Source of the DNA: Pelagibius sp. Alg239-R121
Lineage (GTDB): Bacteria; Pseudomonadota; Alphaproteobacteria; Kiloniellales; Kiloniellaceae
Reading direction: 5' to 3'
DNA: 64,000 bases
NCBI RefSeq assembly: GCF_947331435.1
Contig: NZ_CAMZOF010000003.1
Span: forward strand, 620,001-684,000
Notes under the pieces: model-generated
Told to the model about the DNA's origin: nothing
Database searches by the model: none
The model's input: only the letters and a program-made list of their open reading frames with translations
Program-made: the position numbers and the translations under genes
In this document: one piece after another, positions 1 through 6,085 of the stretch
Layout: the number at the start of each line of letters is the position of its first letter
How positions within the stretch are numbered: the first letter of the stretch is position 1

Positions 1-902
1 CCAAACGGATCGTTGACGGTATTGCCGCCACCGGTAAGCCGGTCGAGGGTTTCGCCATCGAGCAGAACGGCGACATCAATACCATTGCCGCAGCATCCCG
101 CAAGGCGAAGGAATACGTTCAGTGGGCCAGCGAAAAGACCCGCGAGGAATGTGGCCTGGGCGAGCTCTGGGTCTCGACCAAGTGTGGCGAATCCGACACG
201 ACCTCGGGCCTGGCCTCGAACCCGACGGTGGGTAACTTCATCGACAAGGTCGACGTCCAGGGCGCCACCACCTGCTTCGGTGAGACGTCCGAGCTGACCG
301 GCGCCGAACTGGAGTGCGCCAAGCGCGGCGTAACCCCTGAAATCGGCAAGAAGTTCCTCGCCACCTGGCAGGCCTATATGGATGAGGTGATCGAGCCCTT
401 TAAGACCAGCGATCTTTCCGACAGTCAGCCAACCAAAGGCAATATCGAGGGCGGTCTGACCACCATCGAGGAGAAGGCTTTCGGCAACTTCGAGAAGATT
501 GGCAAGAAGACCAACTTCGTCGATGTCCTGCAGCCGGCCGAAGCGCCTTCGAGCGGACCCGGTCTGTACTTCATGGACACCTCCTCGGCAGCTGCCGAGT
601 GTGTGACTCTGCAAGCGGCTGCCGGTTTCGTAGTTCACCTTTTCCCAACTGGTCAGGGCAATATCATCGGCAATCCGATTGAGCCGGTCATCAAGCTGAC
701 TGCAAATCCGCGTACCGTGCGGACAATGGGAGAGCATGTTGATGTCGATGTGTCCGGCATCCTGCGACGCGAAATGAATATGGATGAAGCAGGTGATGCG
801 CTGCTCGACATGACGATCCGGACCTGTAACGGACGCTTGACCGCTGCAGAAGCGCTTGGGCACCGCGAGTTCGTTATGACCAAGCTGTACCGAAGCGCTT
901 AG
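1..902 (+). CDS. suyB: (2R)-sulfolactate sulfo-lyase large subunit, SuyB-like (UxaA family), 5' partial
   Basis: The reading frame is open from base 3 to the stop at 902, so about 299 C-terminal residues are visible and the start lies outside the window. The stretch around bases 195-233 encodes [14 protein letters not shown], typical of the altronate/galactarate dehydratase (UxaA) C-terminal domain, and the protein ends in LYRSA. UxaA relatives act on sugar acids, but the next five genes encode a TTT transporter and two 2-hydroxyacid dehydrogenases of the kinds found with suyAB in sulfolactate degraders. I therefore infer SuyB, which with SuyA splits (R)-sulfolactate into pyruvate and sulfite in the cytoplasm. 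Altronate or another hydroxyacid dehydratase is the alternative; suyA would be expected just upstream. Confidence 0.72.
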
Positions 903-920
903 TTTCGGTTGTTATCGGTT

Positions 921-951
921 CGGGGCGATGTAATAGACTTACGTCGCCCCG
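921..951 (+). repeat. 13-bp stem-loop between suyB and the transporter genes
   Basis: The arms 921-933 and 939-951 pair over 13 positions (one G-U) around a 5-base loop, TAGAC. No T-tract follows, so this is not a clear intrinsic terminator. It lies 19 bases after the suyB stop and 88 bases before the next start. It could be an mRNA-processing or stabilising hairpin, or a partial terminator that sets the ratio of lyase to transporter. The structure is seen; the role is inferred. Confidence 0.5.
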
Positions 952-1039
952 AGCATTGCCTGCTCGTCTTGCAGGTGTGTTACCTGATACCCCGAAGATA
1001 CGGGGACCATAAGAATCGGCGTACATTCAGGAGGAACCT

Positions 1040-2014
1040 ATGGATATTCTGAGAAAAATCGGTGCCACTACGGTGGTCGCGGCGATGTCATTGGCGGCGA
1101 TCGCAATGATTTCTGGCGTACCGACGGCGCAAGCCTTTCCCGACAAACCTGTCAACTACATCATTCCCTTCGGACCAGGTGGCGAGTCCGACATAACGGC
1201 ACGTCACCAGCAGTCCTTCTTCAAAGAGAAGTTCGGCCAGGATCTGGTGATCGCGTACAAGCCCGGCGGCGGTGGTGCGGTCGGCTGGTCGCAACTCAAC
1301 GGCATGATCGGCGACGGCTACACAATGATGGGCATCAACCTGCCGCACATCGTGGTCAAGCCCCTGCAGAAGGATGTCGGTTTCAAGACCGAGGACATCA
1401 CTGGCGTCTACATGTTCCATTACACCCCCGATGCGATCGTCGTGAACGCAAGCAGTGATATCAAGTCGCTTCAGGATCTGGTCGACTACGCGAAAGCCAA
1501 TCCTGGCAAGCTGACAATGTCAGGTTCGGGTAAGGGTACTGCCAATCATCTCGCGCAGGTTCGCTTCGACAAGATGGCCGGCGTCAAGACGACTTATGTC
1601 GCTTTCAAGGGAACCGGTAAGGCCGTTGCGGCTCTGCTGGGGGATCAGGTAAAGGCGGAGTGGGGTTACACTTCGGTGGGTGCCAAGCATGAAGGCAAGG
1701 TCCGTATGCTGGCGGTTGCCATGGAACAGCGTCATCCGAAATTCCCGGATGTTCCGACCTTCAAGGAGCTCGGCTTCGATCTGGTTTCTGGGGCCTATCG
1801 TGGCATCGCGGTTCCCAAGTCCACGCCAGAAGATGTGCGCGTAAAGCTCTCCGAGATGATCGGCGAAATCAACGCGGATCCGGAGTTTCGCAAGCGCATG
1901 GAAAACGACGGCATGGCTTTGCTCGATGTCGGTTACAAGGATCTCAACGCCTTTGTTGCCGAGCAGGCAAAGGCATATGAGGAAGCTGCGCGTGAAGCCG
2001 GGGTTATCAAGTAG
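1040..2014 (+). CDS. tctC: TTT transporter periplasmic binding protein (TctC/Bug family)
   Basis: This 324-residue protein starts with a Sec signal peptide (hydrophobic core about 9-28, likely cleaved after AQA at residues 30-32). It continues with the Bug-family hallmark PDKPVNYIIPFGPGGESD. Bug/TctC proteins capture carboxylates in the periplasm and hand them to a TctAB membrane complex. The start is fixed by a strong AGGAGG ribosome site nine bases upstream. Because it lies between suyB and two sulfolactate-type dehydrogenases, the likely ligand is sulfolactate, matching the SlcHFG transporter described in Chromohalobacter. The ligand is inferred from context only. Confidence 0.9.
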   Translation: MDILRKIGATTVVAAMSLAAIAMISGVPTAQAFPDKPVNYIIPFGPGGESDITARHQQSFFKEKFGQDLVIAYKPGGGGAVGWSQLNGMIGDGYTMMGINLPHIVVKPLQKDVGFKTEDITGVYMFHYTPDAIVVNASSDIKSLQDLVDYAKANPGKLTMSGSGKGTANHLAQVRFDKMAGVKTTYVAFKGTGKAVAALLGDQVKAEWGYTSVGAKHEGKVRMLAVAMEQRHPKFPDVPTFKELGFDLVSGAYRGIAVPKSTPEDVRVKLSEMIGEINADPEFRKRMENDGMALLDVGYKDLNAFVAEQAKAYEEAAREAGVIK

Positions 2015-2099
2015 CTTTCGTCTACAAGTAGTTTTCGTTGACTGACGCAAACTACTCTTCCTTCACGAAACTGGGTATCGGAACCGGGGCACAGCGGCT

Positions 2100-3608
2100 A
2101 TGACCGGACTGGACTATCTCTGGCAGGCTTTGACGCCGCTCAACGTTCTCTTGGCCCTGGCCGGCGTTGTGGCGGGAACCGTCATTGGATCCTTGCCGGG
2201 GCTGACGGCAACCATGGCCGTGGCTGTCCTGGTTCCGATTACCTTTTCCATGGAGCCGGCTTCGGCTCTTATCCTCATGGGCGCCATTTACACGGGCGCA
2301 ATCTATGGCGGTGCATATGCCGCCATTCTTCTGAACACGCCCGGCACGCCCTCGGCGATTGCGACCACATTTGACGGCTATCCCATGGCCAAACGCGGGG
2401 ACGGTGATCTTGCGATCACCCTGGCCTGCGTCTCTTCCGTGGTCGGCGGACTGATTGGGGCCGCCTTTTTGCTTGGACTTGCCCCGCCTTTGGCCGAGGT
2501 CGCTCTGGCTTTCGGGCCGGTTGAATACTTCTGGCTGGCGGTCTTCGGTCTGACGCTGATCTCGGCGCTCTCCGAAGGTAATCTTCTCAAGGGGTTGATC
2601 GGCGCCTGCTTCGGGTTGTTGCTGGCCTGTATAGGTGTTGCGGAAATATCTGCCGATATTCGCTTTACCTTCGGTAGCCAGGTTCTGCTTGGCGGCATCG
2701 AAACGGTTTCCGCTCTGATCGGGCTGTACTGCATTCCGGTCATGATCGATTTGGTTGCGACCCCTGACCGCCACCTAAAGGTCACACAGCAGCCAAGAGG
2801 TTTCCGCCTCAAGGAAGCTTTGGCGATTTCCTGGTTGGGAAAATTCAATCTTATCCGCAGCTCCGTAATCGGTACTCTGGTAGGAATTCTTCCAGGAGCG
2901 GGTGGGTCGATCGCCGGTCTGGTCGCTTATTCCGAAGCGCGCCGCAGTTCGAAGCGCAGCGCCTTTTTCGGCAAAGGCGAACCGGAAGGGGTTCAGGCGA
3001 CCGAATCTGCGAACAACGCGACGGTCGGCGGTGGCTTTATTCCGACCTTGGTCCTGGGCATCCCGGGTACACCACCGGATGCCGTCATTCTGGGCGCTCT
3101 CCTGATCCAGGGGGTGCGTACCGGTCCCAGTCTCTTCACTGAGAACGGCGCCATCGTCTACACTTTCATCTATGGTCTGATTCTGGCGACGGTCCTGATG
3201 CTGCCTGCCGGTCTGGTGATCGGCCGCTACGCCTACAAATCGATCATTACCGTACCTAAGGCCATACTGGTGCCGACGGTCGCATTCATGACCATGATCG
3301 GCACCTATGCCATCCGCAATTCCATCTCCGATGTGGTGATCATGATTGTTCTGGGCGTTGTGGGCTGGTTCCTCAATCGCTTTGGTTTCAGCCCTTCACC
3401 GATCGTCCTTGGCCTCATCCTGGGGCGCATCGCGGAGCAGGGGTTCGTTCAGGCCTGGACTATCGGTGCGGCGACGGAGGATTTGACAGGTATGTTCTTC
3501 GGCCGGCCGATCAGCCTGGTGATTATTCTTTTCACGCTGATTTCTCTCTTCTATCCGCTCATACGGAAGCACTGGGCCACTACGGGAGGAACCGCTAATG
3601 CAGGTTGA
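2100..3608 (+). CDS. tctA: TTT transporter large membrane subunit (TctA family)
   Basis: The protein has 502 residues, the usual TctA length, and is hydrophobic throughout with about 12 membrane spans. It carries the glycine/proline-rich TctA signatures VVAGTVIGSLPGLTATMAVA near residue 22, TPGTPSAIAT near 81 and LPGAGGSIAGLVAYSE near 264. It should form the ion-coupled transport channel with the small subunit encoded next. It starts 85 bases after the binding-protein gene and overlaps the TctB gene by 11 bases, so it is cotranscribed. The substrate is probably sulfolactate, by operon context. The ribosome site is weak. Confidence 0.92.
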   Translation: MTGLDYLWQALTPLNVLLALAGVVAGTVIGSLPGLTATMAVAVLVPITFSMEPASALILMGAIYTGAIYGGAYAAILLNTPGTPSAIATTFDGYPMAKRGDGDLAITLACVSSVVGGLIGAAFLLGLAPPLAEVALAFGPVEYFWLAVFGLTLISALSEGNLLKGLIGACFGLLLACIGVAEISADIRFTFGSQVLLGGIETVSALIGLYCIPVMIDLVATPDRHLKVTQQPRGFRLKEALAISWLGKFNLIRSSVIGTLVGILPGAGGSIAGLVAYSEARRSSKRSAFFGKGEPEGVQATESANNATVGGGFIPTLVLGIPGTPPDAVILGALLIQGVRTGPSLFTENGAIVYTFIYGLILATVLMLPAGLVIGRYAYKSIITVPKAILVPTVAFMTMIGTYAIRNSISDVVIMIVLGVVGWFLNRFGFSPSPIVLGLILGRIAEQGFVQAWTIGAATEDLTGMFFGRPISLVIILFTLISLFYPLIRKHWATTGGTANAG

Positions 3609-4077
3609 GTCGAAAAGCCGCAGCGACCTTGCCGGCACTGTGACTGCGGTCGTATTCATTCTGATGGCCTGTTTGGCTCTCTGGGATACGACCTCGATGA
3701 CGGACTCGGATTCCTACGTTTTCCCACGTGCGATTGCGGCGGCCATGATTGTCTTTTGTATCCTGCTGATCGCGTACAATTTTATAAAAAGACCAGCCGA
3801 CGAGGCTGCCGGCGGCACGGGCAGTGCCTCGACGCCCCGGCGGGTCGGCCTTGTGGCCGCCATGCTGGGGGCGTCGCTCGTCATGCCTTGGGTGGGGTTT
3901 CTTCTGTCGGGCTTCTGCGCCTTCGGCGCAATCATGCTTTTTGCCATGTATGACCCTTGGACCGGCCGTCGCCGCATCGTGTTTCCCGTGGCAGGTCTGG
4001 CAATTGTTCTCGGATTTTATACGCTCTTTTCCAAAGTCCTGCTCGTGCCGCTTCCCGTCGGCGTTTGGTTTCGCTGA
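3598..4077 (+). CDS. tctB: TTT transporter small membrane subunit (TctB family)
   Basis: This 159-residue protein has about four hydrophobic segments (roughly 17-36, 44-62, 83-113 and 123-150), the pattern of the poorly conserved TctB subunit of tripartite tricarboxylate transporters. It starts inside the end of tctA (11-base overlap), which indicates translational coupling. Its order directly after tctA, with the binding protein first in the set, supports the call more than sequence identity does, since TctB proteins share few fixed residues. Confidence 0.85.
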   Translation: MQVESKSRSDLAGTVTAVVFILMACLALWDTTSMTDSDSYVFPRAIAAAMIVFCILLIAYNFIKRPADEAAGGTGSASTPRRVGLVAAMLGASLVMPWVGFLLSGFCAFGAIMLFAMYDPWTGRRRIVFPVAGLAIVLGFYTLFSKVLLVPLPVGVWFR

Positions 4078-4145
4078 CGGCGTAATGCCGAGACCGTTCT
4101 GTCGATGCGGATCGGCCTTGGCCGAAACTCACAGGTAATACAGTC

Positions 4146-5078
4146 ATGCCCGATATCGTTATTTCCGAATTCATGGATCAAGCTGCGGTGGAGGGCCTGC
4201 GTCGGGACTACACCCTTCACTACGATCCGGATTTGGTCGAGAAGGCCGACGAGCTCCTGCAGTTGGTTGCCGGCGCACGCGCTCTGATCGTCCGGAACCG
4301 CACTCAGATACGTGGTGAATTGCTTGAAGCTGCTACTTCCCTGAAGGTGGTTGGCCGCCTCGGTGTTGGACTCGACAATATCGATCTGGATGCCTGTACA
4401 GCGCGCGACATCGTGGTTTGTCCGGCAAGCGGCGCCAACGATGACTCGGTAGCAGAGTATGTCATCGCCATGACCTTGGTCTTATTGCGGGGTGCTTTCC
4501 TGTCGAGCGATGCCGTCGTTGCAGGTGATTGGCCGCGCCAGGCCTGCATCGGGCGGGAAGTCGCCGGTAAACAGCTTGGCTTGGTTGGTTTTGGCGCCAT
4601 TGCACGCAATGTCGCGAGCAGGGCCGGTGCCATGGGAATGCGGATTGCCGCGTTCGATCCTTTCCTGCCGTCGGATCATCGGGCCTGGTCGGGCAGTCAG
4701 AAGCTAGAATTGCGGGACCTGCTGGCTTCTAGTGATGCCATCAGTCTGCATGTCCCGCTCAACGACACGACCCGTAACCTGCTCGACGCGGACGCGATTG
4801 CCGGAATGAAAAAGGGGGCTGTTATCATCAATACGGCGCGTGGCGGTGTCATCGACGAGGCGTCGCTGGCAGCCGCACTTCGCTCAGGTGCGCTCGGCGG
4901 GGCCGCACTGGATGTCTTTGCGGGTGAACCGGTGACCGCTGATGCCGGCGGCTTGTTCGCGGGTGTTCCCAACCTCATTCTCACTCCGCATATCGCCGGG
5001 GTGACCGAAGAGGGAAATGTTCGGGTCAGCGGCGTAACCGCAGACAATGTAAGACGCCACTTGGAGAAACAGGCATGA
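4146..5078 (+). CDS. slcC: D-isomer-type 2-hydroxyacid dehydrogenase, probable (S)-sulfolactate dehydrogenase SlcC
   Basis: A 310-residue NAD-dependent dehydrogenase of the D-3-phosphoglycerate dehydrogenase fold. The Rossmann loop GFGAIAR is at 148-154, and the catalytic triad is complete: Arg232 in NTARGG, Glu261 in FAGEP and His282 in TPHIAG. No C-terminal ACT domain is present, so it is not a full-length SerA. SlcC of Chromohalobacter belongs to this family and oxidises (S)-sulfolactate to sulfopyruvate. The 4-base overlap with the ComC-like gene and the transporter upstream support that role. Glyoxylate, hydroxypyruvate or phosphoglycerate reductase activity cannot be excluded from sequence alone. 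Confidence 0.75.
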   Translation: MPDIVISEFMDQAAVEGLRRDYTLHYDPDLVEKADELLQLVAGARALIVRNRTQIRGELLEAATSLKVVGRLGVGLDNIDLDACTARDIVVCPASGANDDSVAEYVIAMTLVLLRGAFLSSDAVVAGDWPRQACIGREVAGKQLGLVGFGAIARNVASRAGAMGMRIAAFDPFLPSDHRAWSGSQKLELRDLLASSDAISLHVPLNDTTRNLLDADAIAGMKKGAVIINTARGGVIDEASLAAALRSGALGGAALDVFAGEPVTADAGGLFAGVPNLILTPHIAGVTEEGNVRVSGVTADNVRRHLEKQA

Positions 5079-6085
5079 CCGCCGTGACGCACTTCGAAAT
5101 CGATGCCCTTAAGGATCTGGCGAGCCGCGTTCTGACGGCCCACAACACATCGCCTGAAAATGCCACCAGCGTCGCCAATGCGCTGGTTGCCGCCGAAGTC
5201 GACGGTCAAAAAGGGCATGGCCTTTCGCGGCTGGCGGCCTATTCCGCACAGGCGGCTTCGGGCAAAGTACAGGGGCATGCCGTGCCTCGGGCCGAACCCG
5301 TGGGAGCAGCGGCCCTGCGCATCGATGCCGGTTCGGGCTTTGCATTTCCGGCGATGGATCTCGCAATCGAAAAGCTGGACGAGGTTGCGCCTGAAAGCGG
5401 AATCGCGATGGCAGGTGTCTTTCGCTCTCACCACTTCGGGCAGGCAGGCTATCACGTTGAACGTTTGGCCCAGCACGGACTGGTTGGCCTTGCTCTGGGC
5501 AACAGTCCCAAGGCCATTGCGCCCTGGGGAGGCAGGGACGGCGTCTTCGGAACCAATCCGATTGCCTTTGCCGCACCGCGCCGCTCGGCTGACCCTTTGC
5601 TGATTGACCTGAGCCTTAGCAAGGTGGCTCGTGGCAAGGTGATGGTCGCTGCCAAGAAGGGCGAGCCAATTCCTGACGGCTGGGCCCTGGACAAGGAAGG
5701 TCAGCCCACAACCGATGCTGCGGCAGCTCTGGAAGGAACTATGATCCCCATCGGCGACGCGAAGGGGGCTGCCTTGGTTCTTATGGTTGAGATCCTCGCC
5801 GCCGCCGTGACCGGCGCGAACTTCGGTTTCGAAGCCTCATCATTTTTCACGTCCGATGGTCCTGCGCCAGGCGTCGGACAGACCCTCATTGCGATTGATC
5901 CGAGGCGGATGTCAGGGGATGCCTTCACAGACCGGCTCGAAGTCTTGCTGCAAGCGATCCTGGTGCAGCCGGGTACACGTCTGCCGGGCATGCGGCGGTT
6001 GGAGGCACGTGGTGCCGCGGCCAGAGGTGGCGTTGCCGTCGATCCTGCCTTTGTTGAAGAGTTGGAGCAGTTGGCACATCGATAG
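5075..6085 (+). CDS. comC: Ldh/Mdh2-family dehydrogenase, probable (R)-sulfolactate dehydrogenase ComC
   Basis: The 336-residue protein belongs to the NAD(P)H-dependent malate/L-sulfolactate dehydrogenase family. Diagnostic segments are DGQKGHGLSR near residue 43, RSHHFGQAGYH at 117-127 with the probable catalytic His119/His120, GLALGNSPKAIAPWGG near 140 and GTNPIAFAAP near 161. ComC reduces sulfopyruvate to (R)-sulfolactate. Paired with SlcC it would act as a two-enzyme racemase feeding SuyAB, which accepts only the R form. Start and stop overlap slcC as ATGA, so the two are translationally coupled. Confidence 0.8.
   Translation: MTAVTHFEIDALKDLASRVLTAHNTSPENATSVANALVAAEVDGQKGHGLSRLAAYSAQAASGKVQGHAVPRAEPVGAAALRIDAGSGFAFPAMDLAIEKLDEVAPESGIAMAGVFRSHHFGQAGYHVERLAQHGLVGLALGNSPKAIAPWGGRDGVFGTNPIAFAAPRRSADPLLIDLSLSKVARGKVMVAAKKGEPIPDGWALDKEGQPTTDAAAALEGTMIPIGDAKGAALVLMVEILAAAVTGANFGFEASSFFTSDGPAPGVGQTLIAIDPRRMSGDAFTDRLEVLLQAILVQPGTRLPGMRRLEARGAAARGGVAVDPAFVEELEQLAHR

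Follow-up and report, generated by a model that had tools for sequence, protein, structure and literature searches.

What six genes at the left end of a stretch of Pelagibius sp. Alg239-R121 DNA do together, and what becomes of the sulfite that they would release, is the question addressed here. The stretch, hereafter the window, comprises 64,000 nucleotides (G000:C3:620001-684000, on contig C3 of a genome of 8.02 Mb); reading frames were called and their products compared with Pfam under curated cut-offs. The locus is very probably a sulfolactate utilisation operon, and it represents an already known kind of system, SlcHFG/SlcC/ComC/SuyAB. The products of suyB, tctC, tctA, tctB, slcC and comC all exceeded the cut-offs for the expected families, and the arrangement proposed in an earlier sequence-only reading, a same-strand set of six genes with overlaps at tctA/tctB (11 bases) and slcC/comC (4 bases), agrees with the coordinates and the Pfam assignments (Table 1).

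The same reading had suggested extending the window to the left for suyA and a regulator, and both were found there. The suyB gene starts 277 bases left of the window and encodes a protein of 392 amino acids; suyA overlaps its start by 7 bases, both predicted starts being GTG, and a divergent gene for a GntR/HutC-type regulator precedes suyA. SuyA was recognised from the reading frames, as the Pfam SAF probe did not detect it, and aligns with the N-terminal part of galactarate/altronate enzymes. A small, SAF-type SuyA gene thus stands directly 5' of the UxaA-like SuyB gene.

Table 1. Genes of the predicted sulfolactate operon; positions are those of the window unless prefixed by C3.
Gene	Product	Position	Strand	Basis
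suyB, 3' part	large subunit, predicted (R)-sulfolactate sulfo-lyase	1..902; whole gene C3:619724-620902	+	Pfam GD_AH_second + GD_AH_C
tctC	periplasmic binding protein, TctC-type, SlcH-like	1040..2014	+	Pfam TctC
tctA	large membrane subunit of the TTT transporter, TctA-type	2100..3608	+	Pfam TctA
tctB	small membrane subunit, TctB-type	3598..4077	+	Pfam TctB; 3' of tctA
slcC	predicted (S)-sulfolactate dehydrogenase, D-2-hydroxyacid dehydrogenase family	4146..5078	+	Pfam 2-Hacid_dh + 2-Hacid_dh_C
comC-like	predicted (R)-sulfolactate dehydrogenase, Ldh_2 family	5075..6085	+	Pfam Ldh_2
suyA	95 amino acids	C3:619443-619730, left of the window	+	reading frames
gntR	divergent GntR/HutC-type regulator with UTRA domain	5' of suyA, left of the window	opposite	Pfam

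The substrate and its stereochemistry are predicted from homology and context. The tripartite tricarboxylate transporter (TTT) would import 3-sulfolactate, SlcC would oxidise (S)-sulfolactate to sulfopyruvate, from which ComC would form the R enantiomer by reduction, the two acting as a racemase, and SuyAB would cleave (R)-sulfolactate to sulfite and pyruvate, the latter supporting growth on sulfolactate. Repression of the operon by the divergent GntR/HutC-type protein, acting at a palindrome of 18 bases, is probable, and a sulfonate is the predicted inducer. A second locus, of the 2,3-dihydroxypropane-1-sulfonate (DHPS) type, would yield sulfolactate and probably shares this SuyAB. For the sulfite, a TauE-type protein may serve as the exit and a SorAB-like enzyme as the oxidase.

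The genes could instead form a split altronate/galactarate-type dehydratase operon, in which the SAF and UxaA-like pair would dehydrate an aldarate imported by the TTT system and the dehydrogenases would act on hydroxy acids. SuyAB does belong to the altronate/galactarate dehydratase superfamily, and a TTT system that takes galactarate/glucarate has been described in Halomonas. SuyB, however, reached 126.8 bits with the NCBIfam galactarate dehydratase model GarD (TIGR03248), whose cut-off is 730.85, and no other family was matched in the NCBIfam scan; another protein of this genome is of the UxaA type (533 amino acids, 32% identical to SuyB), with its SAF part in the same frame; and some close SuyB relatives adjoin hps genes, exporters or a sulfite oxidase. 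A sugar-acid function is hardly credible on this evidence. Neither of the two outcomes that the sequence-only reading had set against its own assignment, an altronate/galactarate dehydratase as the first gene and the lack of suyA upstream, was observed.

As sulfolactate sulfo-lyase candidates, SuyB and its sulfonate-linked relatives group apart from the altronate/galactarate enzymes, both by the GarD score and by gaps in identity. In a class sample of 190 genomes, 52 had SuyB matches at E ≤ 1e-30; 16 matches, the own one included, had at least 567 bits and at least 68% identity (68-79% in the 15 other genomes), and the next had 234 bits and 38%. Among the best 40 of 316 matching plasmid records, identity was 66-74% in 11 and 63% in 2, the next being 39.6%, so that 13 of the 316 exceeded 60% among the matches listed. 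Four plasmid loci were opened, from C. pinatubonensis, P. versutus, P. seriniphilus and S. mexicanum. The P. versutus plasmid has an exporter gene 3' of suyAB and a sulfite oxidase gene further on; the S. mexicanum stretch is unannotated, yet contains SlcC and ComC matches. Among the best 80 loci, the closest named genome by SuyB was that of Denitrobaculum tricleocarpae (98% identity). A recent transfer of suyB was considered on account of this value, SlcC and ComC being 79-80% identical to those of D. tricleocarpae, and is unsupported because DNA identity is 83% over gntR-suyB and 71-78% in other long blocks.

Linkage was surveyed in 98 suy loci (the best 80 named ones from one scan, 13 relatives, the four plasmid loci and the own locus), L198 being excluded from the linkage counts as it comes from the same genome as L043. 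Each of the 96 loci that reach at least 900 bases upstream of suyB had suyA directly before it, the other 2 being shorter and left out. Further counts refer to the 64 loci with 6 kb on both sides, as 34 of the 98, including that of the window, were too short; presence was scored by identity thresholds chosen in this analysis (TctC at least 45%, SlcC at least 43%), and since the loci are related to one another, Fisher values are guides only. SlcC was present in 32 of these loci, ComC in 46, TctC in 12 and TctA in 11, a divergent GntR gene in 38, Hps genes in 14, a SuyZ-type gene in 18 and a SorA-type gene in 4. All 12 loci with TctC had SlcC and ComC, 11 of them also TctA, and all 32 with SlcC had ComC. 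This co-occurrence among related genomes suggests two modules that supply SuyAB, one for import and racemisation (TTT, SlcC and ComC) and one for DHPS (HpsNOP).

The DHPS-type locus of this genome lies on contig C4 (L158:6289-12662 = C4:287-294 kb) and encodes tripartite ATP-independent periplasmic (TRAP) transporter proteins (65-66% identity), HpsN (59%), HpsO (53%) and HpsP (49%). NCBIfam labels this HpsN a histidinol dehydrogenase, above the cut-off of a domain model, and the homologues of P. versutus and P. seriniphilus are likewise annotated as hisD; the assignment is based on synteny and on the identity to the annotated HpsN of C. pinatubonensis. A LacI-like frame, judged by eye, lies beside the locus. 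The suy operon might be fed mainly from within: HpsNOP would convert DHPS to sulfolactate, and the TTT transporter and racemase would be accessory. The C4 locus agrees with this, suyAB not being found in the 17-kb stretch around it, as does the sister species D. tricleocarpae, which is without the TTT genes. On the other side, 3 of 4 sampled genomes of the genus have a suy operon that includes TTT, SlcC and ComC, and SlcC occurs in 2 of the 14 full-flank loci with Hps genes vs 30 of the 50 without, therefore the racemase goes with import and not with DHPS. Internal feeding as the main role is unlikely, and the sulfolactate operon reading, with import, is preferred. The genome would place one module for sulfolactate import and another of the DHPS type ahead of a single SuyAB; in published abstracts both compounds figure as currencies of the sulfur cycle.

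The active-site residues noted in the sequence-only reading were both located: R232, E261 and H282 of SlcC, which we take to be the R/E/H triad, and HHFG at residues 119-122 of ComC. That reading had also named best matches to phosphoglycerate or malate enzymes as evidence against it, and the solved structures literally provide them. The best such matches of SlcC are phosphoglycerate dehydrogenases, with no entry named SlcC among the best 60 of 164; those of ComC are a piperideine-carboxylate reductase and then a malate/lactate enzyme, L-sulfolactate dehydrogenase (2x06) being seventh. The best NCBIfam score of SlcC is likewise with the phosphoglycerate dehydrogenase model (TIGR01327). SlcC as a second phosphoglycerate dehydrogenase and ComC as a malate/lactate-type enzyme would leave no racemase. 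Against this, the TIGR01327 score of 283.2 bits stays below the cut-off of 454, and a separate frame of 525 amino acids at C3:564312, 40% identical to SlcC, is by its length a candidate phosphoglycerate dehydrogenase; the linkage counts and the trees also favour SlcC and ComC. Moreover, PMC6303947 places the characterised SlcC within the phosphoglycerate dehydrogenase clade or next to it. We consider the absence of a racemase very improbable.

In a quick tree, a branch with a Shimodaira-Hasegawa-like approximate likelihood ratio (SH-aLRT) of 100 separated 43 suy-locus SlcC proteins from 18 paralogues encoded in this genome and from 5 weaker matches; long branches were flagged. SlcC is thus a 2-hydroxyacid dehydrogenase with the R/E/H residues that groups with suy-linked proteins, in a set whose rows were picked by identity. 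ComC, of the Ldh_2 family, grouped with suy-linked relatives, 68 proteins in all being set apart by a branch whose SH-aLRT was 81, under the 95 starred by the tool. NF040650 (sulfolactate dehydrogenase) is the best-scoring NCBIfam family for ComC, and judged by this score the protein is a ComC homologue and not an NF040650 equivalog.

Several observations weigh against the proposed import and racemisation. ComC reached 193.6 bits with NF040650, whose cut-off is 500. Because proteins entered the SlcC and ComC trees only from 43% identity upwards, part of the grouping follows from the selection. In L122 the suy-adjacent SlcC-like protein (42% identity) falls outside the SlcC group, therefore suy-adjacent 2-hydroxyacid dehydrogenases are not all members of it, and the suy-adjacent ComC-like proteins of L122 (31%) and L096 (29%) fall outside the ComC group. 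ComC occurs without SlcC in 14 of the 46 ComC-bearing full-flank loci, which therefore point to some use of ComC without a racemase. TTT systems take many substrates, and D. tricleocarpae keeps suyAB-slcC-comC without one, slcC directly following suyB (L043:11179-11418) with colinear flanks. The outlying dehydrogenases of L122 (L122:7575-9600) and L096 may be other enzymes or distant forms. Four loci of same-family genomes (L199, L200, L202 and L206) have gntR-suyA-suyB-comC, with no SlcC or TTT match found nearby; a substitute for SlcC beside a lone ComC was sought in two loci, L199 and L047, and none was obvious.

The transporter has the composition of SlcHFG, with TctC, TctA and TctB present, tctB after tctA, and a tie to SlcC and ComC, and it is predicted to carry sulfolactate; in the published account of slcHFG, tctB is also downstream of tctA. 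The TTT genes lie between suyB and slcC in 3 of the 4 sampled genus members. In D. tricleocarpae the best TctC anywhere in the genome is 37% identical, and loss of the cassette there is the simpler reading because two family members, G204 and G200 (loci L204 and L207), carry it. A movable transporter cassette, absent from this sister species, is a modest addition to what is known.

The literature describes SlcC-ComC-SuyAB with slcHFG in Chromohalobacter salexigens and Taurinivorans muris. The C. salexigens system (Denger and Cook 2010; via PMC5812351, PMC12421959) has the same enzyme set, the same type of transporter and tctB after tctA, a likeness by published description. Another published sulfolactate system shares the racemase, SuyAB and TTT, with hpsN and TRAP genes in the same genome; its two clusters are neighbours, whereas here suyAB stands with TTT and the racemase, on a different contig from the hps locus. 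Plasmid p420573 of Paracoccus seriniphilus has a divergent gntR, suyA, suyB, tctC, tctA, slcC and comC in the same order, but differs in an exporter gene after comC, in hps genes before gntR and in a TctB part, 26% identical, inside a long TctA gene. The hps-suyAB locus of Cupriavidus pinatubonensis HN-2 is similar in SuyA (57%) and SuyB (67%), suyAB following annotated hpsN and hpsO, and differs in that the stretch matches neither SlcC nor ComC and its TctC-type gene is only 30% identical.

The gap between gntR and suyA contains AACTCTTATATAAGAGTT, a perfect palindrome of 18 bases (L006:13316-13333 = C3:619316-619333, left of the window), which is kept in all four genus members, its core TCTTATATAAGA being kept in L204 and L207. 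The regulator is presumably of the HutC subfamily of GntR, on account of its UTRA domain. The 300 bases before suyA were surveyed in 112 loci, 1 of 113 being left out for lack of a SuyA match. The core CTTATATAAG was present in 43 of 65 loci with a GntR gene vs 3 of 47 with none in view (Fisher p 3e-11, kinship of the loci ignored), many of the 47 being short (15 of the 112 have 1.5-kb flanks), so that a GntR gene may be out of view. The 12-mer core had 55 copies in the 98 loci (1.71 Mb) vs 0.022 expected under a first-order model. Its position between gntR and suyA and its recurrence before suyA are a further modest addition.

Copies of the core elsewhere suggest a wider role. In L092 (Nitratireductor sp. 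XY-223) it is lacking before suyA and is found at a DctP frame and before a set of PfkB kinase, DeoC/LacD aldolase, fucose-isomerase-like and Gfo/Idh genes (region L092:400-8822), and in L088, likewise from Nitratireductor, it precedes a set of similar appearance (L088:2691-7753); both sets are close to suy operons. In L098, a proteobacterial bin, one copy separates a GH31 gene from gntR, the two being divergent, while the suyA-side copy also faces a divergent set of IlvD/Edd dehydratase, HpcH aldolase, gluconolactonase-like and short-chain dehydrogenase genes. By enzyme class, these sets of L092, L088 and L098 resemble sulfoglycolytic ones (compare PMC8873060), and sulfosugars are their putative substrates. 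The palindrome with core TCTTATATAAGA may be the operator of a wide sulfonate regulon under the suy-linked GntR/HutC regulator, a proposal that we judge evenly balanced and that would cover suyAB-TTT-slcC-comC here, DctP and the kinase/aldolase/isomerase set in L092, and GH31/gntR and the Entner-Doudoroff-like/suyA genes in L098. If it holds, genes for sulfonate uptake and sulfite disposal could be found through a common site, and the palindrome would mark the rest of the regulon, exporter included, in this and other genomes.

Counting against control of the suy operon through this palindrome, the core is missing in 22 of the 65 loci with a GntR gene, and the site of SdhR, another HutC regulator, has the same core (PMC4494728), which therefore is not unique to suy. 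No paper tying the core to suy genes was found by title or abstract, with partial coverage of journals. The 12-mer core is absent from the window, allowing at most one mismatch, and apart from the suyA site no copy at that stringency was found in the scanned portions of this genome (398,520 bases with overlaps counted twice, at most about 5% of the total); therefore hps and sorAB are not evidently under the palindrome. These parts contain two copies with 2 mismatches, one of them at L160:6403, between BCCT-like and LysR-like frames and not before sorA.

As to the sulfite, the sequence-only reading saw no exporter or oxidase gene in the part shown to it, and indeed none adjoins the operon. The search that it proposed for TauE and SorAB genes was negative next to the operon and positive elsewhere in the genome, with eight TauE-type proteins, one encoded at C3:590731, 29 kb from suyA, and a SorAB-like pair. 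The SorA-like protein, on contig C7, shares 56% of its residues with the sulfite oxidase of P. versutus but has 250.7 bits with the SorA model, under the cut-off of 600, and its SorB-like partner has 49% identity and no matching NCBIfam family. Sulfite is probably exported and oxidised through these unlinked genes. PF03601, which we take to be the family of the SuyZ-type exporter, had no match in the whole genome; some relatives have an exporter gene beside suyAB, without such a neighbour here. Xsc, as an alternative route, was rejected with a best score of 419.5 vs the cut-off of 676.4.

Contig C7 also carries a sox thiosulfate-oxidation cluster (L159:4866-14365 = C7:100-109 kb), with SoxB and SoxC over the cut-off and, by eye, a YeeE-like frame. 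Upstream of the suy locus, a phosphotransacylase-like (Pta-like) gene and an IclR-type regulator gene are found (L006:9747-11657); in L053 and L057 a similar pair lies 3' of the suy operon, with a pyridoxal phosphate decarboxylase-like gene and one that by eye is aminotransferase-like.

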